Source: Sporisorium sorghi (taxonomy: Eukaryota; Basidiomycota; Ustilaginomycetes; Ustilaginales; Ustilaginaceae). From it: a DNA stretch of 61,037 nt. Location of the stretch: NCBI GenBank assembly GCA_023212695.1, contig JALCCG010000120.1, positions 1 through 61,037 of the forward strand. The letters run 5' to 3'. Of the stretch, positions 871-24,575 are shown one piece after another. Each line of letters starts with the position of its first letter. Position 1 is the first letter of the stretch. The notes under the pieces were generated by a model. The model was not told the origin of the DNA. It searched no databases and saw only the letters and a program-made list of their open reading frames with translations. A program made the position numbers and the translations under genes.

Positions 871-3800
871 ATGTCGTCGCCTATGCTCAAGCAACAAGAA
901 AAGCGCAAGAGCGAGAGCTCCAGCGACCGTCCGCATTTGTCTTCGAACGAGAATGACGACGAAATCCGACCCGTCGGTCGCATGCCGTACAACCATTTTC
1001 CCAGCTACCACAGTCGTAAGTCTCGCAATCCGCTTTCTGGGATAGAGAATTCACATGTACGGGCACGCTGAAGAGGACGATCACACTGACGCTCTGATTG
1101 GTTTGCTGCTTTGCGCCTTGCAGGTTCAAGCACATTGACGCCCAACGGCGAGCTTACTTCGTTGCCTTACACGCCTGGTTCTCAAAGCCCCTACGACCGA
1201 ACCGCTGCGGGAACTCCCGTCGACGAGAAGAAGCGTGCCAGCGTCGCCGAGTTCCAGGCGGCCAAGGACTCGGCCGGCGCCGTTGGCTCTGGTGTGGTCG
1301 AGGAGGAAAAGAAACCGCGAGCCGATCAGCCTGTCAAGAACGCGGCCAACGGCTACCTCGACTATGCCGACGGTCTTCGTGGTATCGCCATGATCCTGGT
1401 GTTCAACGGCCACTTTATCGACAACACGTTTGTCGGAACCCACCCTGACACCATTGCCAACGGTACCCCCGTCGGAATCCTGCGAAGCCCCATCGGTCTG
1501 GTGCTCTTCTACATGCTTTCGGGACGTCTCAACGTCACGTCGTACTTCCGCAACAAGTCTCTCGGTCGCCCTATCATCTGGAGCGTCGTTCCGGAGGCCA
1601 TGATCCGCCGTGCTCTGCGTCTGTTGATCGTCAGTGGTGTCTGGCTGATCATCCAGAAGGTCGAGTGTGGAACCCACGCTTTTGACCAGACCGTCATCGC
1701 AGAGGGTTGGCTCCAGAGCGGTAACCTCGGCTACCCGCTCTGGTGCAAGGTCGATTACACCAACCCTTCGCCTTTCCCCAGGGACTGGAAGATCTCGACC
1801 AGCGTCGGCGATATCCTCGAGGGCATCCTTCGCCTGGCTACCAACCGTGACTACCTGCAGCAGCTGCTCAACACGTCGATGCTCTGGTCGATCGTGCCGC
1901 AGCTCTGGGGAATGCTTTCCGTGCTCATGATGCTGCCCATCGTCATGTACCTGGATGCCTCGCGTCGCTTTGTGCTCTACGCCCTGCTGCTCATCTTCCA
2001 GGGTTACACGTACAACCAGAACATCCCGTTCACCATTGGTGCCATTGCTGCCGATCTCAAGGCGTCGGGCTACATCAAGATGTTCAACCAGAAGTCGCGC
2101 ATCGCTTTCTTGGCTTCGGAAACCGCTATGGCTGCCATTTTTGTCGCGGCGTTCTGCTACAATCCGATTTTCACTGGAATCGACTCGGGGCTGCAGAGGA
2201 TCACCGACCGTGATGGTACGCTGGGCTACAGCATCACCGAGTTTACGGCCGGTCGTATGCCGAGCTACCTGATCATGGCTGGTCTGCTGTACTACTGGCT
2301 CGAGATGAGTGTGGTGCTGCAGTGGCTGGTGGGTAACTGGGCGTTCAAGGCGCTCGGCCGTGTTGCGCTGGGTTTCTACGTGTGTCAGATGTCGATCATC
2401 TACGGCATTATGCCGTACCTGGTGATCCACTTCCGTGACCGTGGGTACACGTTCTGGAGCAACATGTGGAGCACGTGGCTCATCACGTTCTTCTCGGCGT
2501 ACGTGGCGGCGTGGATCATCTCGCACACGCTCGACAAGTGGGCCATGATCTTCTCGGACTGGTTTGCCAAGACCATCGTCCGCGAGGACACGTGGGCGAC
2601 GCTGCGCGCGTCGGCGGTCAACACGGCGCGCTTTGTGGTGTTTGGGCCTCCGGCTGCGGCGAGGGCTACGCCGGGGTGGTGTAGGGACAAGTGGGCGAAG
2701 ACGAAGCACTTTTTCTGGGTCATGTTCCACTGGAGGACTATGGTGGATGCGCCTGCGCCGCCGTCGCACCCGATGGAGGTGGGGCTGCAGATGAACGAGC
2801 TGCACTCGACGCTGTTTGATGCCGATATTTCGGACGACGAGCAGGCGGTGAGGACAAGGTGGATGCTGCGTGCGCTGTCGTTCTTGGGGCCTTTGCAGGT
2901 GGGCATCATTTTGGGATTGGGTTTCATTTGGATGTGGTTCAACCCCTGGTCGAGTTACATCCTGGATGGGTTTGCCGACTTTTCGACCATCTGGCGTCTG
3001 CTGTGGGCGTTGGCGCTGCCGTACTGCATCATTACGACGCTGGGCTTTGCCACGCCGGACATTACGAGGACTACGGAGGAGCTCAAGAAGAAGCCTGTGG
3101 TGCGCGAGCACATTCACCGTCTGTTTATCGTGTCCGTCACGCGCGGATCCAACCCGGAGACGACGAGGCGTGCGCATCTGCACCTCAAGAAGCTCGAAAA
3201 GTACCACCCCGCGGTGCGTTCGATCGTGCTCACCGACGAGCCGTACTCGTACCCGGATCTGGACAACGTCATGACGCCCAAGGCGTACAAGTCGCCGCAG
3301 GGCAAGGCGAAGCACAAGGCCAAGGCGCTCGACTACTTCCGCTCGCACATGAACCTCACTCCGTACGACTGGGTGCTGCACATGGACGAGGAGTCGACGA
3401 TGGACGCCGAGTCGCTGCGTGGATGCTTTGACTTCATTCGCTACAATACGGCGCACATTGGTCAGGGTATCATCATCTACAACGGTAAGAGGGAGACGTA
3501 CTGGAAGAACTGGTTCTTTGCCGTTGCCGACTGCATCCGTGTCGGTGACGAGCTGGCTAGGTTTTCGTTGCAGGGCAACATTATCAAGCGGCCGGTGTTT
3601 GGTGTTCATGGGTCGTTCTTGATGATCAACGGCGATGTCGAGAACAAGGTGACTTGGGACTTTGGCTCGCTGGCCGAAGACTTTGAGTTTTCGCAGGCTG
3701 CGTGGGCGAAAGGTTTCACGTTGGGTCGTATCCACGGTGTGGTGCGAGAGCAGTCGCCTGAGGGATGGGCGGATTTCATCAAGCAGCGTCGTCGTTGGTA

Positions 3801-4182
3801 CATGGGTATTCGTGGTATCGATGGCTTGTTCTTCCTGCCCCAGATCGCGATCAAGCTGTGGACGGCAGGTATCTTCTGTCTGGTGGCTACGTTGATCAAC
3901 ATCCCCTTTTCGCTGCTCTTGGAGTGGTCCGGTCCCACGCCCAGGTGGCTCTACGTCATCTCGTGCTTCTGCTTCGGTAACTTCTACTGGCTCTACTACT
4001 CGGGTCTCTTCTTTTCCGAGATCGACTACGGCTACAAGTGGCATCAGATGTGGCAGGTCCCTGTGCATGCGGTGGCGCTGTTGATCATTCAGCCCATCAT
4101 GGCGTTTGTGGAGGGTATGGCGGTGGTGTATGCCATGTCGACCGCGGATGGAGAGGTTGGCTTCCAGGTTATTAAGAAGTAG
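871..4182 (+). CDS. Fused acyltransferase-3 / GT2 glycosyltransferase, membrane protein
   Basis: Two exons, 871-1015 and 1124-4182, give 1067 residues. The 108-nt intron has donor GTAAGT, a CTGAC branch-like site at 1086 and a CAG acceptor, and the join restores one frame (..YHSR|SSTLTP..). After a hydrophilic N-terminus, an acyltransferase-3-type multi-pass domain starts near residue 127 (YLDYADGLRGIAM) and runs to about 550. Further membrane segments lead to a GT2 domain from about 690. This has the GT-A signatures expected of egghead-like processive enzymes: an acidic HMDEEST motif near 801, an ED pair in LAEDFEF, and QRRRW near 936, then C-terminal membrane spans. I infer that it makes and acylates a surface or secreted polysaccharide or glycolipid; the substrate cannot be read from sequence. 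The long minus-strand ORF over the same bases is an antisense shadow. Confidence 0.85.
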
Positions 4183-4790
4183 AGGCGGGGATGGGTTAGT
4201 TTTTTTCACTCTCTTTTTTGTTTGTTGTTGTGGACAATGTATGTTTCTTACTTGATCTTGGTTGTGTCGTTTGCAGAATGTGTGTGAGAGCAGCGGAAGG
4301 GTGAGACACCTGCGAGTCAATGTGGTGTGTACGAAGTGAAAGAGTGGCGCTGGAAGTTGCCGAGGACGACGTGCGTAACACCTCGCGGTGCTGCTGCTGC
4401 TTTGTCGATAGACGGAATCTTTCTTTCAAGGATTCAGGGCTCGCTACAGTGATTCGCGGGCTGGTCGAAAGCTTCGCTGGCAACATCATCGTTGGCACTG
4501 CCTGCTGCCTCATCGTCATCATCCTCGTCGTCCAAGGCACCTGCATATCGTCCGCCGTAACAATGCGGAAGGGACTGACGGTAATCAGCGACAGCAACGT
4601 CAACGTCTCAACTGGCCACTCAAGCTTCGACTATGACGCTTCGATCCTTCACACTTCAGCATCCAGGACGGCCTTCGACTCGAGTTGTTCGAGGTTTTTC
4701 CGGTCGTCCGCACTTTACTTGCTCGTCGCTCTCTCCGCGCCGACCTACTCCTTCTGCCTCCATCGCAGCGGGTGCAGATCTCGCCCGATA
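4183..4790. other. Region downstream of the AT3/GT2 gene, no intact gene
   Basis: A T-rich 3' flank is followed from about 4320 by sequence with coding-like composition on both strands. On the plus strand one frame stays open from 4320 to 4799 but its product is odd (runs of Cys, Val, Ile). The aligned minus frames give a hydrophilic peptide with an acidic run (DDEDDDDEAAGS) ending at 4434, but only after frame changes and in-frame stops. I cannot assign a gene; it may be a decayed C-terminus. Confidence 0.4.
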
Positions 4791-5685: not shown

Positions 5686-8600
5686 TTACGCTTGGCGCTG
5701 GACCGCATCAATCCATCTCTGAGTCACAGGCTGCCAGACGCCTCTCGTCCTGTACACTCCAACGACGGCGCCTGTCATGATACCAACGACAGTGGTCAGC
5801 ACGACATTGCCGATGATGCTCTGCTGGCGCTTCTCGGTCTTGACGACGGTCGAGTACGGCAGGTTGCTGAACGTGGTCATGGCGTAGAGGCTGCTCCACA
5901 TGCTCGAAGGCAGGATGGTCATGAGCAGACCGTCGAGCTTCTTACGCAGCAGGTAGGGCCAGGACACGACCGAGTGGGCCATCTCGCGGTAGTTCTGCTC
6001 CGCCAACTGCAGGATCGCCACCAGGTCCGGATGACGTTGCTTGGTGTACGTGTCGAGAGCCTCTTCGAGCGTCTCCTTGCCATCGATGATGTCGAACAGA
6101 ACGCGGACGTCTTCGAAGCCGCAGTTGAGACCTTGACCGTAGAAGGGAAGCATCGCATGGGCCGCATCGCCGATCAAGACGGCTCGGTCCTTGTAGTGGT
6201 ACGGGTCGCATTGGACGCTTCCCAACGCGCTGGCTCTGCGAGTGGTGAGACATTCGACCAGCGTGTCCTCGCCGATCAGAGGCAGCGCATCCGGGAAGTG
6301 CGCCTGGAACAGAGCCAGAATGCCTTCCTTCGTCGACATCTCCGAGGCAAACATCTTGAATGGCGCAAACAGCGTGCACGTGAAGCTGCCGTCCAGGTTG
6401 GGCAGCGCGATGAGCATGAACGAGTGTCGCGGCCAGATGTGGAGGTGGTTGGGGTCGAGGTGAAAGGCGTCGTGTCCGCCAGGCTTGCCATCGGCTCCGC
6501 CCGAGCCGCGGATGCGCGAGCCCGATGACAACGAGGTGCGAGCAGGGATCGAGAGCTCGACATAGCCAGTGTCGATGTAGTTGTGAGTGTAGTGCATGCG
6601 AATGAGGCTGCCCATGGCGGAGCGGATCGAAGAGTGCGCACCATCGCAGCCGACGACAAACGAGGCAAAGTGCGTGTTGGACGTCTTCGGGATGCGCTGG
6701 TTGGTGCTGTGCACGTCAAAGTCGAGACGCACACGGTCAACATTAGAGCCTTGGCTCGGCTGTTGAGCGGGGTTTCGTTTCGTGGCCGCATGTTTGTTCT
6801 TGCCGCTGCGACGGAAGAGCTCGTCAGCAGAAGACTCCCCGCCCGACTTCTTTGCGGCAACGCCGTTGGCGGCTGGCAAGGCAGCTCGCTTTGCGGCCGT
6901 TCGGGTGTCATTGTCAAAGTCGACGCTCTGCAGCTTGTGCTCAAAGTGCACGTCAACGTTGGGGTGCATAAGAGCATGGTCGAGCAGGATGTTGTTGAGC
7001 CTGCCGCGGTCCACCGAGTGGATGCTTTCGCCCTTGGTGCTGTACAGCTGGCTCAACTCCTTGACCTCTGCCTTTCGGTCGTCTGTCGCACGCTTGGTTA
7101 CCACGTGAATCATTCTGGCCCTCATGGGCACCGAGTCTTGCAGAACGAGATCGGCGAGATCCTTGCCGGTGTGAGCGTACTTGCCAAGACCGACGAGGCT
7201 GACACTGCGCAGGCCAGTGATGCCGCGAGTGGAGAGAGCGAGGTTGATGCTGCGCTGCGAAGCACGTGCGACTGCCTCGTGCGTGCGCGGGTCAGGTCGC
7301 GATTCGAAGATGTCGACCTTGCATCCTCGTTGAGCAAAGGCAAGAGCAGCCAGGCAGCCAACAGGGCCAGCGCCAATCACAGCAACGCGTTCAGGCAAGC
7401 GGCACTTGGTCGGAAGCTGAGCCGGCGCCAGGGCTGCGTCTCTGCGAGTCGTGCTGCTCGCCGAATCACGGGCCTTGACGGCCGGTGCAGCCTCGACTTT
7501 GGACAGCTCATCCGCCGAGCCAGGTCGAGGGGCGCCATTTGCCTTGGTCGCGATGCGAGAAGCATCGCCGCTTCTGAGCTCGATACTCTTGTTGGCTGGG
7601 CGAGTGTTGAGGTCCTTGACTTGCTCCAAGACTTCAAGGACTTGACTCTGGATCGCCTTGACCGCCTTTTCCGTCTCGTTGAATGAGTCGGTTTGCTCGG
7701 CAATCAATGTCTTCCTGACGTTGGTGATCTCCGAGACGATAGCGCGCTCGACTCGTTCAGAGACCGACATCATCACGTCTTCAAAGTGAGGCGCAAGGAC
7801 GCGGCTGACGACCTCCATGGCCGTGCGCTGGACAGCAGGCAGGATGGCCTGTGCGATGTTGCGTGTGAGCTCGGCCTTGAGTTCCGTCGAGGTGATGAGT
7901 CGCTCGACTTGCTGCGGGATGGAGCCCTCGATAGACTGCTGGAAGCCCGAAGCAATGTTGGCCGAGACGGCGTCGTGAACAGCCGAAGTGATGGTGTCCG
8001 TTAGCGCAGCGGTGATAGCATCGGCAGAGAGGGGCGTAGCTTCAGCGGCGGGTGACTGCGAGGGGGCAGCGGGCGTGACCTGAGACGTGGGCGCTTTTGA
8101 AACCGTTGCTGCAGTCAAGGTCTGCTTGGGCGTAGGCGTCGGAGCCTCTTCCTGGCTTTGCTGAGCCTCGGGTGCGGCAGCTGCGACTCCAGTCTTGGAA
8201 GCGGGCTCGAGGCTCTGCATGGGCGCCTCTAAGCCGTCGGCCTTACTGGAAGCCGCCTCCTCAGCCTGCGGCTTGGCAGTAAGAGCCTTCTTCTTCTTGC
8301 TCTTCTTCTTGCTAGATTTGCTCGGGCTTGTCTGCCAGTCGACAACGGATGCGTGAGGTGTCGGCTCGGGAGCTGGCGAGGAGACAGCCGCAGCCTGATC
8401 TGAGGCAGGCTCGGTTGTCTTGTTGCCATCCTCTGCGGCGGTCGCCTCTTCCGCCTCCTCTGCAGACGGCTCAGTCTTGTGAAGCTGAGCAACGCTGACG
8501 CCCTCTGGGAAGGCAACAAACAGCCTCGAAGGCTCGCCGGCGTCCTTGGCACTCGCGCTGATGGTCAGGGATGTGCATGGATCCTGCAAAGCAAACTCGT

Positions 8601-10956
8601 GAATCGGGTAGGACAGCTGAATGCTCCAGGGCAGCAGGCCTTTTTCGAGGCGGGCTGAAAGCGAGTCAATGTCCGCCGATGGAAGCGGCTGGAACTCGAG
8701 CGGCACGGCAAAGATGGACGAGCGGAAGCTGTTGCAAACCAATAGCGTGTTGCTCTTCGAGTCCAACTGAACGAGGTTGAAGTGTTCTTCTCCGTCGGCA
8801 GATGCGTGCAGAGGCACTTGGAATTTCCAAACGTGCTTGAATGATCGCGAGGCAAGATCGTAGAGAGCCAGAATGGTGTTGCACTTGAAGCCAACGAGTA
8901 CACCGCGAATGACTTTTGCGTCTCCGTCTTGAGCCCTGGTCTTGCTGTCGTTTTTGGCGCCAGTAACGAAGGAGAGATGGCTGATGGTCATTGGCTCTTG
9001 CAGAGGCGACTCCATGGGGAAAGTCAGGTTTTCTGCATTGCCACCGAGGGACTTGAAAGTCAAAGTCCATGAAACATCGCCGTCTGGCGGCGCCGAGAGG
9101 GTAGCCAGCATGGAGCCATCTGGAGAGAAAGCGAAGGCAGCCAAGAACTCGTTGTTGGGCACATCCTTGCTCTGCGAGTCAACGTCCGACTCGGAAAGCG
9201 ATCGAGACTCCTTTGGTGACGAAGAAAGCTGCTGTGCAACGTCGACAACGATGACGTTGCTGTCGCTGGTGGAGATGGCGAGCCTTGGCTCGGTAGGATG
9301 CCAGACAATAGCAGTGAAGCGATGGACAAAAGAGCCTTTGGCGGGATCGGCGGTGATGCGACGGATCAAGGCAGGATCCGAAGCTTCCTTGCCTTGCAAT
9401 ACAAAGGGAGAAGGCACCTTCCAGAGGACGACACCTTCGTCCGAGCCGTTCTTGGACGCTTCGACGAGAGCAGCCAGCAGGAACGTGCCGCCGTTGTGCG
9501 AGGACTGATATGCGGCGATGGAGCGGATGGAAGCTTTGCTTGGCGCCTGTACGAGCAGCCTGGCTCCGGTGCCGAGGTGAATGAGTCTGACCTTGCCCTT
9601 GGACATGGCGTAGCAGGCAACGTTGTGTCCCAGGTTGGCGATGCGAGAAGCTGGAAGAAGACCTGCAGCAGAGACGCTGCAGGGGAAGTGGAAGGGTGAA
9701 GAGATGAGGGCGACACCCGAGGTCTCGACGTGGGTGTTGCGCAAGCTTGAAAGGCCACCTGGCTGCTGAGCGCTGAGATCAAGGGTGGTGATGCCGGGAG
9801 CACTAGAGGAGCGCGATGGCGAGAGGACCGACAGACCAGAGGATTTGGGATCGTCGAAAGCGTCATTGTGTTTGAGCACGGCGGCGTGACGAGAAGCATG
9901 GTGCTGCTTGTCTGGGGATTCGAGCGGCACAGGATGCGACGGAAGCTTGCGGAAGGCTGGACGCGTAGAAGCGGAGTCCACCGGGCTGGCTGAAGCTTCT
10001 GCAGTTGACTGAGCTGCGTCCTGAGGTTTCTCCGCAGACGCTGTTGGCACAGCTTGGTGGACCGGGGCATTAGTCTTGATGGATGCAGGTGGACTGGGCT
10101 TCTGTGACGACTTGTTTGCGGCTGCGGACGCGGAAAGCTTTTGCAGCAAGCTGGAAATGCCTGCATTGGCCGCCTCGTAGCCATTTGTCGGCTCGACAGG
10201 TTGCTGAGAGGTCGAGGTCGAAGGTGCCGGCTGAGCCTGCGCATAAGCTGGCTGTGGTGTGGGCTCATCGTCGCGCTTGGAGAGCATGTCAAAGGGGCTG
10301 ACAAAGTCGAAGGGTGTCTCGAGCGAAGGCGAAGGTGCAGCGGGCGCGGCCTCGTCCGACGATGCTTTCATGGCAGAGGAAGAAGAAGCATGATGAGACT
10401 TGAAGAGATCTCCATCGAGAGATGCGGGTGTGTGGATGACGGGCGAGCGAGAGCCAGACGAGGACTGGCGTTGCTTGCTGCCCGTGAGACTGCTGACAGA
10501 GCTAGGAGGCGAAGGAGGCAGCTGAAGCGCTTTGTTGAGGAGGACGGGTCGTGACTGCCTTTGCTCATCGTTGGACGATTGCTGGTTGGGAACTTTGTTG
10601 TCGGCGTTGGGCGACAGGACAAAGGAGGGCGCAGGAGCCATGAATTGCTGCATGAGGGAATTGACATCCTTGGGAGGCTGCTGCTGCTGTTGCGAGGGGC
10701 CGGGCATGATCCTCGATGATGCTCGTGTGTTTTGCGAGTCCTGTTCGGCTGCGGATGAAGGTGAAGCGGGGGATGTCGAGTCCTTGGAGAGTGAAGCTGC
10801 CAGCGGGTTTGCGGCGGCAGCGGTGGAAGAAGGGGGAGAAGTGACACGACCAGGCGCACCAGCGAGCAGATCCAGAAGGGAGTTGGACGCGGTCATGGAT
10901 GTCGAAGCACTCTGAGCTTTGGAGGAGCTCTCCAAGTGAGCAGATGGATTTGACAT
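5686..10956 (-). CDS. EDC4-like decapping scaffold fused to kynurenine 3-monooxygenase
   Basis: One uninterrupted 1756-residue ORF. The start is the ATG at 10956 (A at -3, CACCATCATG); upstream in-frame codons have no ATG. Residues 1-400 are disordered Ser/Pro/Gln-rich sequence. About 415-820 is a WD40-like propeller region, then comes a Lys-rich low-complexity linker and a helical segment at about 970-1120 (from ITAALTDTITSAVHD to EVLEQVKDL) as in EDC4 scaffolds. From about 1188 the chain continues in frame into a complete FAD monooxygenase of the KMO family: GAGPVG near 1195, a DG motif in FVVGCDGAHSS near 1435, and GDAAHAMLPFYGQGLN near 1600. A hydrophobic anchor (NVVLTTVVGIMTGAVVGVY, about 1715-1735) precedes the end. 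KMO hydroxylates L-kynurenine with NADPH and O2 on the mitochondrial outer membrane, toward NAD+. EDC4 supports DCP2-dependent decapping in P-bodies. No in-frame Met lies in the linker or before the dinucleotide-binding fold. Confidence 0.88.
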   Translation of the reverse strand: MSNPSAHLESSSKAQSASTSMTASNSLLDLLAGAPGRVTSPPSSTAAAANPLAASLSKDSTSPASPSSAAEQDSQNTRASSRIMPGPSQQQQQPPKDVNSLMQQFMAPAPSFVLSPNADNKVPNQQSSNDEQRQSRPVLLNKALQLPPSPPSSVSSLTGSKQRQSSSGSRSPVIHTPASLDGDLFKSHHASSSSAMKASSDEAAPAAPSPSLETPFDFVSPFDMLSKRDDEPTPQPAYAQAQPAPSTSTSQQPVEPTNGYEAANAGISSLLQKLSASAAANKSSQKPSPPASIKTNAPVHQAVPTASAEKPQDAAQSTAEASASPVDSASTRPAFRKLPSHPVPLESPDKQHHASRHAAVLKHNDAFDDPKSSGLSVLSPSRSSSAPGITTLDLSAQQPGGLSSLRNTHVETSGVALISSPFHFPCSVSAAGLLPASRIANLGHNVACYAMSKGKVRLIHLGTGARLLVQAPSKASIRSIAAYQSSHNGGTFLLAALVEASKNGSDEGVVLWKVPSPFVLQGKEASDPALIRRITADPAKGSFVHRFTAIVWHPTEPRLAISTSDSNVIVVDVAQQLSSSPKESRSLSESDVDSQSKDVPNNEFLAAFAFSPDGSMLATLSAPPDGDVSWTLTFKSLGGNAENLTFPMESPLQEPMTISHLSFVTGAKNDSKTRAQDGDAKVIRGVLVGFKCNTILALYDLASRSFKHVWKFQVPLHASADGEEHFNLVQLDSKSNTLLVCNSFRSSIFAVPLEFQPLPSADIDSLSARLEKGLLPWSIQLSYPIHEFALQDPCTSLTISASAKDAGEPSRLFVAFPEGVSVAQLHKTEPSAEEAEEATAAEDGNKTTEPASDQAAAVSSPAPEPTPHASVVDWQTSPSKSSKKKSKKKKALTAKPQAEEAASSKADGLEAPMQSLEPASKTGVAAAAPEAQQSQEEAPTPTPKQTLTAATVSKAPTSQVTPAAPSQSPAAEATPLSADAITAALTDTITSAVHDAVSANIASGFQQSIEGSIPQQVERLITSTELKAELTRNIAQAILPAVQRTAMEVVSRVLAPHFEDVMMSVSERVERAIVSEITNVRKTLIAEQTDSFNETEKAVKAIQSQVLEVLEQVKDLNTRPANKSIELRSGDASRIATKANGAPRPGSADELSKVEAAPAVKARDSASSTTRRDAALAPAQLPTKCRLPERVAVIGAGPVGCLAALAFAQRGCKVDIFESRPDPRTHEAVARASQRSINLALSTRGITGLRSVSLVGLGKYAHTGKDLADLVLQDSVPMRARMIHVVTKRATDDRKAEVKELSQLYSTKGESIHSVDRGRLNNILLDHALMHPNVDVHFEHKLQSVDFDNDTRTAAKRAALPAANGVAAKKSGGESSADELFRRSGKNKHAATKRNPAQQPSQGSNVDRVRLDFDVHSTNQRIPKTSNTHFASFVVGCDGAHSSIRSAMGSLIRMHYTHNYIDTGYVELSIPARTSLSSGSRIRGSGGADGKPGGHDAFHLDPNHLHIWPRHSFMLIALPNLDGSFTCTLFAPFKMFASEMSTKEGILALFQAHFPDALPLIGEDTLVECLTTRRASALGSVQCDPYHYKDRAVLIGDAAHAMLPFYGQGLNCGFEDVRVLFDIIDGKETLEEALDTYTKQRHPDLVAILQLAEQNYREMAHSVVSWPYLLRKKLDGLLMTILPSSMWSSLYAMTTFSNLPYSTVVKTEKRQQSIIGNVVLTTVVGIMTGAVVGVYRTRGVWQPVTQRWIDAVQRQA

Positions 10957-11370
10957 GATGGTGAGCAAGCGGGTCCGTCGTCGAGTCAAGTGCGGAAGGT
11001 CCAATCGATTCCTCCACGATCTAAGGGGAGCTTGTTAGTGTTTCGTGACGAGGAGCCAGTGATAGCTTGATGCCGGTGACGACCAGGGTGGAAGCGTGGA
11101 GTGGGGGAAGGAAGGAAGGATCGGATGTCAATTTGACAGCTGAGCAAAGTTGCTTTGCGCATCGAAAGCGCTCAGTCTGAGTTAATAATCAACTTCTTGC
11201 TTCCTCTCTCAAAGTCACACTTTTTTTTGGTGTGACGTTGGCAAAGTGGAGATTCGAACGATCCCGCGGCGGTGGGAAAAAAAGTGAAATTTCAATTTCT
11301 TCTAGCTCTTCTCCTGCCTCTTCCAAACAAATCGAAAGTTCGCTAGCCTGCCGCATTGATCCGAGTCAGA

Positions 11371-11393
11371 CGCTCGCTCGCTCGCTCGCTCGC
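11371..11393. repeat. (CGCT)n microsatellite
   Basis: Nearly six perfect CGCT units in the upstream region of the EDC4-KMO gene. No function inferred. Confidence 0.9.
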
Positions 11394-12051
11394 AGAAAAT
11401 CTCTGTTGCCGAGCAGCGTGGCCTTCCTGTGCGCGCGATCTCACACTCAATATATTTAAAATTCGAAATTGTTACATCGGCACAGCTGCTCAGATGGTGT
11501 CTCGACAAAGTCAAAAGGATGTTGTGGATGTCGACAAGAGCGACAGTGAGATCGTTGCTGCAGCCAATTGTGTCTCAAACGATGCATAGTAGTTGAAGCT
11601 CGACAGCAGTTGTCAAGACCGTGGGGGCGGATGATCGGGACAATTTAACAATCTCGCCAACGGTCGAGGCGGAAGTCAACCTCGGCGTAAAGAGGTCTGC
11701 AGCGTCCAGGCAGATGATCCAAGACGCTTTTGTGCACCCATGCTCTCAGCTTGGTCTCTGTTGTGCAATCTGAGAATGGTAATCAGCGCCGTTTGCGGCT
11801 TGACTCAAATTGTCGACGCCAAAGGTGAGCGCGATCAGCCCGCTGGTAGATGATCTCGAGCTGCTCGTCTGCGTCATTCTGATCTCGATCGACGTCGAGG
11901 CGGTGGACAAGAGGCGCAAGCTTGGACTGACCTAGGTAGACTTGCCTAAAGCTACCAGCCGCTGTTACGAGGTGCTAGTAGACGATGAAGGCGAACTGCA
12001 AGATCTGAAAGCGCCCTCGTCGCTCCTCCTCATCGAGAAGGGACTGCAACG

Positions 12052-12089
12052 CAACGACAACAACAACGACAACGACAACGACAACGACG
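12052..12089. repeat. (CAACGA)n microsatellite
   Basis: About six units of CAACGA/CAACAA in otherwise non-repetitive, possibly relic coding sequence. Confidence 0.85.
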
Positions 12090-13059
12090 AGGGAAGAGCA
12101 GGGCGACGCAATCCCCGCACGAATCGACGCGCAGGTTGACTTCTCGTCTCAGGGAGGGTCCTAAGCCTCGAAGAAAGAGGCACGCAGAGTCAAACCCTTC
12201 ACGGCCGGTTACCGCAGTCACAAACGACAGCCCTTCACGCTTCCGACCAGGGTCTCTCAAGATGGACTACGACGCACACGTCTCACTACCTTGCTTCTCG
12301 GCAACAGAGAACCTGATGAGGTTGGTGCGTCGCGTTGTGCTCCGGGTCGCAATCACGCTCAACCCTGATCCCGAAGTCCACTCGCTGCCTCACAAAACGA
12401 TTCGGCGTAATCTCTGTAACATAGAAACATGGCTGCGGTATGGCCGCTTCGCCCCGCGCCACTCTCCTAAGTGTCGTTCACAGGTCGCTTGTCTGTGCTA
12501 CGCGCTTGATCTGGGATCACTCCAACAGCGAAACGACCGTGGAGGTCTTTCCCTGACAACCTGTTGATCCATCACGAGGTCCATCCCGCTTCGCCCAACC
12601 ATTTGACCGGTATCGGGGTCGCTCGCACGCTGGAGCAGTGAGGCACTCCAGCATGTATGCTCCTCCACCACATCCACAGTCACAGAGACAGCAACATCCA
12701 GAGCAGCAGCGAGCGTTCAACCCGCTCATCTGGCGAATCAAAGCACCGTCATTTCGCTCATCTTTCCTTGCTAAGCTCTGCCTCCTCCAACATAAGGCAG
12801 ACAGACTGCGTGCTGTCCAATCTTCCGATGTATCGACTTGAGTATCTTGATTTCGTCTTGCGGCGATGAGGGCTCCTTGAAGGCAATGTAGGTAGGCAAT
12901 TCATCTGAATGCGACGTCAACTGCAACCCTAGTCTAGTCTTAATGTCCAAATTGACGTTGCCTAAGTTGAAGTCACATTGGTGCATGGCAATCGATGTGT
13001 GTGGTACAACCAACTGCAAGAGTGTGTGGCAGAGGCGTCCCAACCAATGCTTGGTCTTG

Positions 13060-21083: not shown

Positions 21084-24000
21084 ATGTGCTCGCCCAATGT
21101 TCACTATGAGCACTTTCTCAACAACCGTCCCTCCTCCTCGTCATCCCGACCGCTCACGGACAACATCTCCAGCCTAGCACAGGCCAGGCTAGCTGGAGTC
21201 TCGTCGCTTTCTTCAGCTTCAACCGCAAATGGCTCAGCAGTCGCATCAACGAGTGCACTGTTGGGTCATACGATCAACCACCACTCATCCGTCCTCTCCC
21301 TGGTTGTAGACGAACGCCGCAACCTGCTCTACTCGGGCTCTCAGGAGGGTTGTATCAGTGTATGGGATCTCGGTACCTTTCAGTCCACCGCGCGACTTCA
21401 AGGTCACTCGGCAAGCGTACTTGCCCTCGAACTTGCCCCCGAAAAAAGCTGGCTGTTTAGCTCCTCCGGCGACAACACGGTCCGCGTGTGGGACACCCTC
21501 ACCAACTCGCCACTCTTCGTCATTATCCCAGCCGAAGACAGCGTCGGCGACATCTTTGCGCTCAAGTGGTGCTCTGTCCTCGAGACACTGTATATCGGAT
21601 GTCAGTCGACGTCGATACAGTGGATCTGCCTTGCTGGCTTCGACAAGCGAAAGCGCTACAGTAGCGGGATCCAAGGAGTCGGCGGCCAGCCTGATGGACA
21701 TGATGCTGAATCTGCACCTAGTGCGGTAACAGGCGACCAGTTCCGTGCCGACAGCCCCATCATCTCGACACCGGACCTCCTTTCTCGACCCCACAAGTTC
21801 TTCGACTCGGTGCCCGTAGCACTCAGCAGATCAGGCATGGGCAGCGCAGGCACATCAACCCCTACACGCCGCCCAAACGCAAGACCTGCTGCCATCTCGG
21901 CTCTCGGCAGTGCCGACGTTGCTACGCAGCGAAAGTTCCCACCCATCACAGAATCCGAGCATCAACCTCACACCAATGACAATGGCGCCCTTGCAACCGC
22001 AGCAACGACAGAAAAGGTCCTTCATGCTGCATCGCAGCGTCTCGACAATGCGGCTCTTCCCTCGGCTGGCTTGGATAGCAGCGTAGCTTCCATCGATCCT
22101 GCCTCTGACTCGATCCGCACGCTGCTCATCCCTCCGACGTCGTCCGTGCCCTCGGCGCACTTTGGCTACGTCTACTGCCTCGCTCTCCTCACGCTCGAAG
22201 GCGATACAGAGCACCCGACCGTGCTTGCATCGGGCTCGGGCGACGAGTCCATCAAGCTCTGGCACGCCACTCGATCTGGTCTCTCGCTCCTCGCTACGCT
22301 CGAAAGTCCCAACGCCGATGGCAACGCCGTCCTCGCGCTTGCTTCGTGGAAGACGACGCTCTTCTCGGGCCTGCAAGGCGGAGAAGTCGAGGTGTGGGAT
22401 CTCGAGACTTGCACTCTGGTCCGCACCATTCGCGCACACACCGACGACGTCATCTGCCTCGAGACGTGTCCAGAGTCCGGACTCCTCTTTACCGCTGGCG
22501 CCGACGGCAAGGTGCACACGTGGGATCGCTCCTTTAGATGCATCAGCCGGGTGCAGGCGCATGACGGCATCGCGCTGTCGCTGGCAAAGGTTAGAAGCGC
22601 GGCTGACATCGCATCAGATGCTGTGGACGACACTTCACACCGACATACACCCAAGGTCTCGCAGCTCATCACGGGCTCGAGCGACAACCTCATCAAGATC
22701 TGGGACATGGTGCCAGCTCGATCTTCAGCAGCATCGTCGTCAGGCAGGAAAACAGCGACGGCTGCACTCCGACGAGAGGCAGAACGGCTTTCGCTCGACA
22801 ACGCAACACCATCTTTTGGCACTACGCCTACCGCCACCGCCACCGCCAACGCGAACGCGCCTACCAACGTCGTCGGCGTGGAAGCCGCATCCATCCTCGC
22901 TGCCACTACAAACGGTAGCAGCAGCAGCGGGGAGATCGCCTCGGCGCAATGGCCGCTCCTCCGCTCGCTGCTGCGCAAGTTCATCTCCTACCCCAGTATC
23001 AGCTCGAGCGAAGAGCACAGAGAGGACTGCCGCCAAGCCGCACACTTCCTCAAGACGTGTTTCCAGGAACTCGGTGCAGAAGCTCGCGTGCTGCCCAATC
23101 CGGTCGGCACCAACCCGTTGGTGCTGGCGACGTTCAAGGCGAACGCCTATCGATCACGAAGACGCCGCACTGCCGCTGCCAACTACGAACGCTCGAGGAG
23201 CACTTCGACTTCCACCTCTGCCTCGGCGTCCACTGCTGCGTCGACCACCTCGTCCGAGTCGTTCCTGAGCGTCGAAAGGGATGCACTCGATGAAGAAGAT
23301 GAGGACGAGAGTGAGGGCTTGAGCGGGTCCATCATGTTTGACCGTTTGCAGGATCCGAACGAGCAAGGAGGCGAGGGCGACGATGAAGAGGGCCGCGCGT
23401 CTCGACCTGGGCGCAAGCGACGCTGCCTATTTTACGGCCACTACGACTGCATCGACGCCGAGGGAAGCTGGGCATCGGACCCGTTTACGCTGGATGGCCG
23501 CGATGGATATCTTTACGGAAGAGGAGTGTCGGACAACAAGGGCCCCATTCTGGCCGCTGCGTGTGCGGTGCACCATCTGCTCTCGACGCGTCGACTCTAC
23601 TCTGATGTCGTGTTCCTCATCGAGGGCGAGGAGGAAAACGGCTCGGTGGGCTTTGTCGAGGCTGTGAGGCGGTACAAGAGCGAGATTGGCGAGATCGACG
23701 TGGTGCTGCTCTCCAACTCGTACTGGTTGGACGAAGAGACGCCCTGTCTCACCATTGGTTTGCGCGGAGTGGTGCGGGCGACGGTGAGCGTGGCCAGCGG
23801 CGACCGTGATGTGCACTCGGGTGTCGAGGGAGGCGCGATCCGCGAGCCCATGGTGGACATGGTCAAGCTTCTAGCACGGTTAACAGGGTCAGGCGAGCAA
23901 GTGGCTCTACCTGGATTCTACGACTCTGTGCGTCCCGTCACCGAGACGGAGATCCAGGGATACAAAGACATCGTGCGTATCAAACAGTCGCTCCAGTCCA

Positions 24001-24575
24001 CCACCGCAGGCGACCACAGCCACAACACGGACAGCGAGACAGTCGAATCACTCATGGCGAAATGGCGCAACCCGTCGCTGTCGGTGCACAACATCCGCGT
24101 CTCTGGGCCGGGCAACTCGACCGTGATCCCCTCCACCGTCTCCGCACAAGTCTCGCTCCGTCTCGTACCGGACCAAGACCTGCCCACAATCGAGGCCTCG
24201 CTGATCGAGCATGTACATACGACATTCAACGAGCTCTACCCCTCACAGGCACGGCCGGGGAGCAAGAACAAGGTGTGCGTCAGCGTCGACCACCGCGCCG
24301 ACTGGTGGCTCGGCTGCGCCTCGAGCAGCTTCTTCCAGCTCCTCCGTCGTGCGGTCAAGGAGGAGTGGGACGCCGAGCCGATTTCGATCAGGGAGGGCGG
24401 CAGTATCCCGGCGATCGCGATTCTCGAGAAGGAGCTCGCGGCGTGCGCGGTACATCTGCCGATGGGTCAGAGCAGCGACAATGCGCATCTGCCGAATGAG
24501 AGGCTGAGGCAGAGGAACTTGGTCAAGGGGCAGAACGTGGTTAGGCGGTTCATTCAGGGGTTGGCGGCGATGTAG
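21084..24575 (+). CDS. DUG2: Glutathione degradosome subunit Dug2 (WD40 + M20 peptidase)
   Basis: 1163 residues, intronless. About 60-560 is a WD40 propeller with clear repeat ends (CISVWDL, VRVWDT, IKLWHA, VEVWDL, VHTWD, IKIWDM). About 640-1163 is an M20-family metallopeptidase with the expected metal ligands: His and Asp in FYGHYDCIDA near 785, Asp in GRGVSDNKGP near 818, Glu-Glu in EGEEENGS near 848, Asp/Glu near 876 and a C-terminal His in NAHLPNER near 1134. This architecture is that of yeast Dug2, which with Dug3 starts cytosolic glutathione breakdown. An acidic, Ser-rich insert sits near 700-780. A minimal uORF overlaps the start codon. Confidence 0.93.
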   Translation: MCSPNVHYEHFLNNRPSSSSSRPLTDNISSLAQARLAGVSSLSSASTANGSAVASTSALLGHTINHHSSVLSLVVDERRNLLYSGSQEGCISVWDLGTFQSTARLQGHSASVLALELAPEKSWLFSSSGDNTVRVWDTLTNSPLFVIIPAEDSVGDIFALKWCSVLETLYIGCQSTSIQWICLAGFDKRKRYSSGIQGVGGQPDGHDAESAPSAVTGDQFRADSPIISTPDLLSRPHKFFDSVPVALSRSGMGSAGTSTPTRRPNARPAAISALGSADVATQRKFPPITESEHQPHTNDNGALATAATTEKVLHAASQRLDNAALPSAGLDSSVASIDPASDSIRTLLIPPTSSVPSAHFGYVYCLALLTLEGDTEHPTVLASGSGDESIKLWHATRSGLSLLATLESPNADGNAVLALASWKTTLFSGLQGGEVEVWDLETCTLVRTIRAHTDDVICLETCPESGLLFTAGADGKVHTWDRSFRCISRVQAHDGIALSLAKVRSAADIASDAVDDTSHRHTPKVSQLITGSSDNLIKIWDMVPARSSAASSSGRKTATAALRREAERLSLDNATPSFGTTPTATATANANAPTNVVGVEAASILAATTNGSSSSGEIASAQWPLLRSLLRKFISYPSISSSEEHREDCRQAAHFLKTCFQELGAEARVLPNPVGTNPLVLATFKANAYRSRRRRTAAANYERSRSTSTSTSASASTAASTTSSESFLSVERDALDEEDEDESEGLSGSIMFDRLQDPNEQGGEGDDEEGRASRPGRKRRCLFYGHYDCIDAEGSWASDPFTLDGRDGYLYGRGVSDNKGPILAAACAVHHLLSTRRLYSDVVFLIEGEEENGSVGFVEAVRRYKSEIGEIDVVLLSNSYWLDEETPCLTIGLRGVVRATVSVASGDRDVHSGVEGGAIREPMVDMVKLLARLTGSGEQVALPGFYDSVRPVTETEIQGYKDIVRIKQSLQSTTAGDHSHNTDSETVESLMAKWRNPSLSVHNIRVSGPGNSTVIPSTVSAQVSLRLVPDQDLPTIEASLIEHVHTTFNELYPSQARPGSKNKVCVSVDHRADWWLGCASSSFFQLLRRAVKEEWDAEPISIREGGSIPAIAILEKELAACAVHLPMGQSSDNAHLPNERLRQRNLVKGQNVVRRFIQGLAAM

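Follow-up and report, generated by a model that had tools for sequence, protein, structure and literature searches.

In a 61,037-nucleotide stretch of the Sporisorium sorghi genome (contig JALCCG010000120.1, here called the window), we found one open reading frame (ORF) that joins an N-terminal part resembling the mRNA-decapping scaffolds EDC4 and Pdc1 to kynurenine 3-monooxygenase (KMO). The ORF observation is real. An earlier note had described a single in-frame EDC4-like/KMO ORF in this DNA, and reading the frame from the DNA without a gene model bore this out. The same architecture, which that note had proposed looking for in related smuts, was found in 14 further proteins. The fusion ORF is thus confirmed, and the note's interpretation of it is supported in part. 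The whole explanation, a vertically inherited fusion gene of Ustilaginomycetes whose product is one polypeptide holding a decapping scaffold at mitochondria, is in our view evenly balanced between right and wrong.

The C-terminal half is probably a complete KMO

The C-terminal half reads as a complete, probably tail-anchored KMO. Comparison of the fusion ORF with the yeast KMO structure 4j2w gave an E value of 5.5e-82. The predicted fold of this half is that of KMO, and is nearer to KMO than to other flavin monooxygenases. An FAD dinucleotide motif, GAGPVG, is located at residues 1195-1200, and R1281 and Y1305 are invariant in all 15 fused proteins. Their yeast equivalents, R83 and Y97 (chain positions minus a 21-residue tag), we take to be substrate-site residues. 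The hydrophobic stretch at the C-terminus falls within the alignment with full-length rat KMO, and is above the hydropathy threshold in 13 of the 15 proteins, with moderate values (1.82-2.09). The full KMO with FAD motif and hydrophobic tail that had been proposed for this ORF is therefore supported by the 4j2w match, the rat KMO alignment and the predicted fold.

The fusion resembles KMO/Bna4 in its predicted full fold, FAD motif, R83/Y97 equivalents and C-terminal hydrophobic stretch. It differs in that its KMO lacks a start codon of its own, and in the addition of a 1186-residue N-terminal part and a low-complexity insert at residues 1351-1408.

The N-terminal half resembles an EDC4/Pdc1-type scaffold

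Judged from its sequence, the N-terminal half is probably an EDC4/Pdc1-type scaffold. Structure prediction revealed a putative β-propeller. Its top structural neighbors are generic propellers (Nup214, RbBP5, coronin), and EDC4 is not among the 50 neighbors listed in either structure comparison. The profile PF24106 (EDC4L, the Pdc1 propeller) found a sole candidate in six frames of the genome (23.2 Mb in 469 contigs), and this was the fusion ORF (E 0.32, 13.3 bits, under the cut-off of 27). Our genome searches disregard introns and score the best candidates only, so copy counts are lower bounds. The Thecaphora homologue (P0014) matched EDC4L at E 0.17, below cut-off, and PF16529 (Ge1_WD40) at E 0.04 (13.3 bits, under the cut-off of 29.5). 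Its EDC4L match aligns with Sporisorium residues 608-754, and both sequences meet the profile at one place.

Pdc1 of Schizosaccharomyces pombe is described as related to EDC4 (PMC8984151), with leucine motifs, propeller and coiled coil reported in that order (PMC4320757). Leucine motif, propeller and helices follow in the same order in the fusion. The leucine motif NSLLDLLAGAPG, of the pattern LLx[MIL]L that arises in 0.7% of shuffles of fusion residues 1-366, is kept in nine of the ten alignment members whose N-terminus is present, the Sporisorium ORF included. The tenth, P0014, has VLDLL at this position, and the models that miss part of the N-terminus (P0003, P0005, P0006, P0009 and P0012, five of 15) begin too late to show it. 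Dcp2 of the same genome (L016 1387-3279 (+), G000:C117) contains four LLx[MIL]L motifs past residue 300; 5000 shuffles gave a mean of 0.03 and a maximum of 3. S. pombe Dcp2 is likewise reported to carry several leucine-rich motifs (PMC4320757).

Residues 976-1117 are predicted to form four helices, at low confidence (block pLDDT 38-61). A PDB profile search with this region gave three chance-level matches (E 0.48 or worse). Searching with residues 400-1115 returned 12 proteins of 7990 candidates, all of them fused smut proteins, and missed P0014 and P0015. A search with P0015 residues 1012-1092 returned P0015 itself and P0014 from 24 candidates, and missed the remaining fused proteins. No unfused EDC4 relative was found by these searches; since known relatives were missed, the word filter is a likelier cause than absence.

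The N-terminal half shares a predicted WD40 propeller, a spacer and a putative helical region with Pdc1 and metazoan EDC4 (Ge-1, Hedls) as described in PMC4320757 and PMC8984151, and has candidate counterparts of the N-terminal leucine motifs of S. pombe Pdc1 (PMC4320757). Unlike Pdc1 and EDC4, the fusion ends in a whole KMO, the Ge-1C domain is undetected, and its similarity to EDC4 profiles lies below cut-off. In S. pombe Pdc1, Ge-1C (solved as residues 932-1076) reportedly contacts Dcp1:Dcp2 (PMC4320757). In Drosophila, localization to processing bodies (P-bodies) reportedly depends on an invariant arginine in the C-terminus of EDC4 (PMC8984151). Between the helices and KMO the fusion has about 70 residues modeled as disordered, compared to the 145 residues of Pdc1 Ge-1C (PMC4320757). 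Ge-1C is likely absent from the fusion protein, and KMO seems to sit at the place expected for it. Thus, of the earlier view that EDC4 is fused to KMO, a probable EDC4/Pdc1-like scaffold stands, though one that looks truncated rather than complete.

The junction between the two halves

A codon score trained on the remainder of the ORF found the linker to be coding in its own frame only. Taken by itself, an open frame of 77 codons says little: such frames make up 31% of those sampled across the window (real genes included), and the shares are 13.6% for shuffled linkers and 1.6% among 258 frames sampled in window positions 11005-12135. The stretch aligned to residues 1083-1189 is free of methionine in eight of the 15 proteins, and no methionine column across it is common to more than three. 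A separate KMO start was rejected on the lack of a widely shared methionine before KMO, although P0006 and P0009 do have one. Ribosomal skipping was also rejected, the 2A-type NPGP motif being found in none of the 15 proteins. Residues 1081-1200 of the Sporisorium gene contain seven YAG acceptor-like sites and no strict donor or branch motif.

Conservation was computed among 13 proteins, excluding P0014 and P0015. Of ten segments, the linker ranks second from the bottom, with 57% mean majority identity, compared to 82% for the helices before it and 92% for KMO after it. The last 14 residues ahead of KMO are conserved (84%).

Distribution and inheritance

We searched with the KMO part, admitting candidates of 0.55-1.75 times the full protein length. 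Scoring 7993 candidates returned 23 proteins, 14 of which have the same scaffold ahead of KMO (ten from named species, four from metagenomes). The species are Sporisorium reilianum, S. graminicola, Kalmanozyma brasiliensis, Melanopsichium pennsylvanicum, Ustilago tritici, U. nuda, U. loliicola, Moesziomyces antarcticus, Thecaphora frezii and Violaceomyces palustris. Three species whose orders were looked up belong to Violaceomycetales, Urocystidales and Ustilaginales. Ustilago maydis, which we had expected, is not named among the 23 proteins; it may have a separate KMO entry.

The remaining nine proteins have partners other than the scaffold. P0016-P0020 each carry a different partner, limited in every case to one genus (P0020 stands for 12 member sequences of Wallemia), which suggests that these five are probably merged gene models. 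Three bacterial proteins (P0022-P0024) have a common condensation-domain partner, and P0021 is a fern record. One of the five probable merges is a Malassezia protein, from another class of the same subphylum. Judged from this one sequence, the scaffold-KMO join is probably an invention of the Ustilaginomycetes.

Pairwise distances of the two halves correlate at 0.93 (the pairs are not independent), and the scaffold half is about twice as divergent as the KMO half. In the trees of both halves the main division separates P0014/P0015 from all others. Moesziomyces is placed differently in the two trees (96/95 versus 93/98). The arrangement is kept in distant relatives, making an assembly accident unlikely.

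A possible decapping scaffold at mitochondria

The C-terminus of KMO anchors the enzyme in the outer mitochondrial membrane and leaves its catalytic part in the cytosol. The scaffold would therefore face the cytosol, and no topological conflict arises. In the mechanism that we propose, one polypeptide would comprise an EDC4/Pdc1-type scaffold minus Ge-1C, a short linker and a complete KMO with a probable tail anchor. KMO would perform its usual step in NAD synthesis, and its anchor would tie the scaffold to the outer membrane of mitochondria. There Edc3 would be bound by the N-terminal leucine motif, in the manner of S. pombe Pdc1, the propeller would contact Dcp1, and the helical region would multimerize, which would keep part of the decapping machinery at mitochondria. 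The human EDC4 propeller is reported to contact Dcp1 (PMC8984151), and the proximal helical region of EDC4 is reported to form tetramers, in a C. elegans fragment, and to bind the Dcp2 tail (PMC13103063), by which a route to Dcp2 without Ge-1C would remain. We consider it probable that the chain is unbroken in the cell. The chance of decapping at mitochondria we put slightly below even. More tentatively, the scaffold may have moved to the outer membrane with Ge-1C replaced by tail-anchored KMO, giving a permanent mitochondrial mRNA-decay platform at 1:1 with an enzyme of NAD synthesis. On the link to NAD-capped RNA that the earlier note had suggested, none of our results has any bearing.

Several observations weigh against this proposal. 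All EDC4 profile matches are below cut-off, and none is listed for the fusion ORF itself as P0001. PF16529 found no match in the genome, and was silent in 14 controls too. Two consensus propeller sequences matched generic WD40 profiles only, not EDC4, and EDC4 has been called metazoan-specific (PMC13103063). The LLx[MIL]L pattern was picked after inspecting both the fusion protein and Dcp2. PF21289 (Ge-1C) gave no match in the genome, with controls equally silent; because Ge-1C is undetected and is reported to contact Dcp1:Dcp2, the decapping function may be weakened. The tail stretch is below the hydropathy threshold in Thecaphora (P0014) and Violaceomyces (P0015), and that of P0011 is unlike the tails of the other fused proteins. 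In P0006 and P0009 a methionine lies 21 and 28 residues, respectively, ahead of the FAD motif GAGPVGC, and could start a short KMO. The homologues are known as protein models, which leaves room for introns at their junctions.

Alternative explanations

The gene could be fused and its product split, by a protease acting in the disordered linker or through a KMO-only transcript with an internal promoter and a spliced-on start, leaving co-expression as the only connection. The low conservation and modeled disorder of the linker would fit such a split, as would the seven acceptor-like sites and the methionine shortly ahead of KMO in P0006 and P0009. However, the missing NPGP, the lack of a strict donor or branch motif in the Sporisorium gene, the lack of a widely shared methionine and the conserved 14 residues preceding KMO argue against it, and we consider a split product unlikely, if worth keeping in mind. 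Alternatively, the whole protein could reside in the cytosol or P-bodies and take KMO with it, concentrating the enzyme in a condensate. Leucine motifs and a multimerizing coiled coil are reported to let S. pombe Pdc1 phase-separate with Edc3 (PMC4320757), and the tail is of moderate hydropathy, below threshold in two proteins. Its passing the threshold in the other 13 and its place within the rat KMO alignment count against a P-body location, as does the failure to detect the C-terminal domain tied to P-body targeting in Drosophila. We regard this location as unlikely.

The N-terminal part could also be a β-propeller scaffold of another family, in which case the link to decapping is wrong. 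This would be consistent with the generic structural neighbors, the sub-threshold EDC4 profiles and the unrecovered unfused relative. We nevertheless find it improbable: the fusion ORF is the sole EDC4L candidate in 23.2 Mb, two EDC4-type profiles touch the Thecaphora protein with EDC4L at the aligned place, the order of parts is like that reported for Pdc1 (PMC4320757), and a leucine motif is held in common with the organism's own Dcp2. Probable merges among the same search results (P0016-P0020), and an assembly that seems to contain a bacterial contig, raise the question of a gene-model or assembly artefact merging two neighbors. This was rejected, as the frame comes directly from DNA and the identical join recurs in 14 proteins, ten of them from named species; the chance that it holds is very slight. 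An EDC4/Pdc1-type scaffold held at mitochondria by KMO is the reading we prefer.

Features of the ORF and other reading frames

Table 1. Features of the fusion ORF. Coordinates are window positions.
Feature	Residues	Position	Strand	Basis or remark
Whole fusion ORF	1-1756	5686..10956	-	1756 aa + stop, about 187 kDa; frame taken straight from DNA
Candidate Edc3-binding helical leucine motif NSLLDLLAGAPG	25-36	10849..10884	-	LLx[MIL]L pattern, as in own Dcp2
Leucine/phenylalanine motif, conserved	99-108	10633..10662	-	Possible second interaction motif, by analogy
Short conserved motif TPFDFVSPFDML	214-225	10282..10317	-	Alignment conservation
Leucine motif GISSLLQKLSA, conserved	266-276	10129..10161	-	Possible further interaction motif, by analogy
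WD40-type β-propeller	410-850	8407..9729	-	Predicted fold; weak EDC4L profile match at 8707-8907
Low-complexity, lysine-bearing spacer	851-975	8032..8406	-	Presumed disordered; least conserved of ten segments
Helical region, candidate coiled coil	976-1117	7606..8031	-	Low-confidence prediction; LPAVQRTAMEVVSRVLAPHFEDV core nearly invariant
Linker	1118-1186	7399..7605	-	Coding-like; Met-free in the Sporisorium sorghi ORF
KMO catalytic domain	1187-1715	5812..7398	-	R1281/Y1305 align with yeast R83/Y97
Low-complexity insert within KMO	1351-1408	6733..6906	-	Varies among smuts
C-terminal hydrophobic stretch, basic flanks	1714-1736	5749..5817	-	Candidate tail anchor; inside rat KMO alignment

The genome search for a second KMO gave nothing beyond 33 matching residues, located in a frame where a flavin monooxygenase (by eye COQ6-like) is fused to COQ7. 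This frame (L002, G000:C100, around 79914-80012; ORF 58-2721) encodes an 887-residue in-frame fusion with FAD_binding_3 (E 1.6e-13) and COQ7 (PF03232, E 2.6e-61) domains. Like the scaffold-KMO gene, it is a single ORF in which a flavin monooxygenase is joined to a second protein. Its partners would share one pathway, whereas scaffold and KMO belong to separate processes. A search for a second scaffold with residues 335-1184 gave nothing convincing in the genome, the sole match (27%, E 0.014, on C240) containing three stops.

The genome encodes Dcp2, one LSM14 match, two FDF matches and 3-HAO, which acts two steps downstream of KMO. An 842-residue frame (L011 946-3474 (-), G000:C199) has an FDF domain and, by eye, an LSm-like start. 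YjeF_N is unmatched in it, and its C-terminal part, with a HELLH motif, matches no Pfam family at E 1. Both YjeF_N matches of the genome are on other contigs. This frame may encode an Edc3 whose C-terminal domain has been exchanged.

Elsewhere in the window, acyltransferase 3 and group 2 glycosyltransferase domains are located in a single 1023-residue frame (1111-4182 (+)). The 1064-residue open frame antisense to it (1126-4320 (-)) probably results from codon composition. The frame at 21084-24572 (+) encodes WD40 repeats and, after them, an M20 peptidase; it is probably an ordinary gene, presumably of Dug2 architecture. Two frames on another contig (G000:C30, L014) look bacterial by eye, one of them NnrD/NnrE-like, and part of the 23.2 Mb may be contamination.

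Implications

Both protein families are known. What appears new is their join, its class-wide spread and the seeming replacement of Ge-1C by KMO, and no description of the fusion was found in the titles and abstracts of the best-matching open-licence PMC papers. In databases the fused proteins go by KMO/BNA4, hypothetical or uncharacterized, and their decapping half has thus been overlooked. A deletion of KMO in a smut would also take away the scaffold, and its effects could be mistaken for purely metabolic ones.

If the cell keeps the chain intact, the fusion is a natural tether experiment, in which the required site of decapping can be tested directly. The same holds for the ability of an EDC4-type scaffold to function in the absence of Ge-1C, and for the question of whether cells tolerate, or even benefit from, mRNA decay on the surface of mitochondria. 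If the more tentative reading of a permanent decay platform is true, mRNA turnover near mitochondria and NAD supply would be physically coupled in these fungi.
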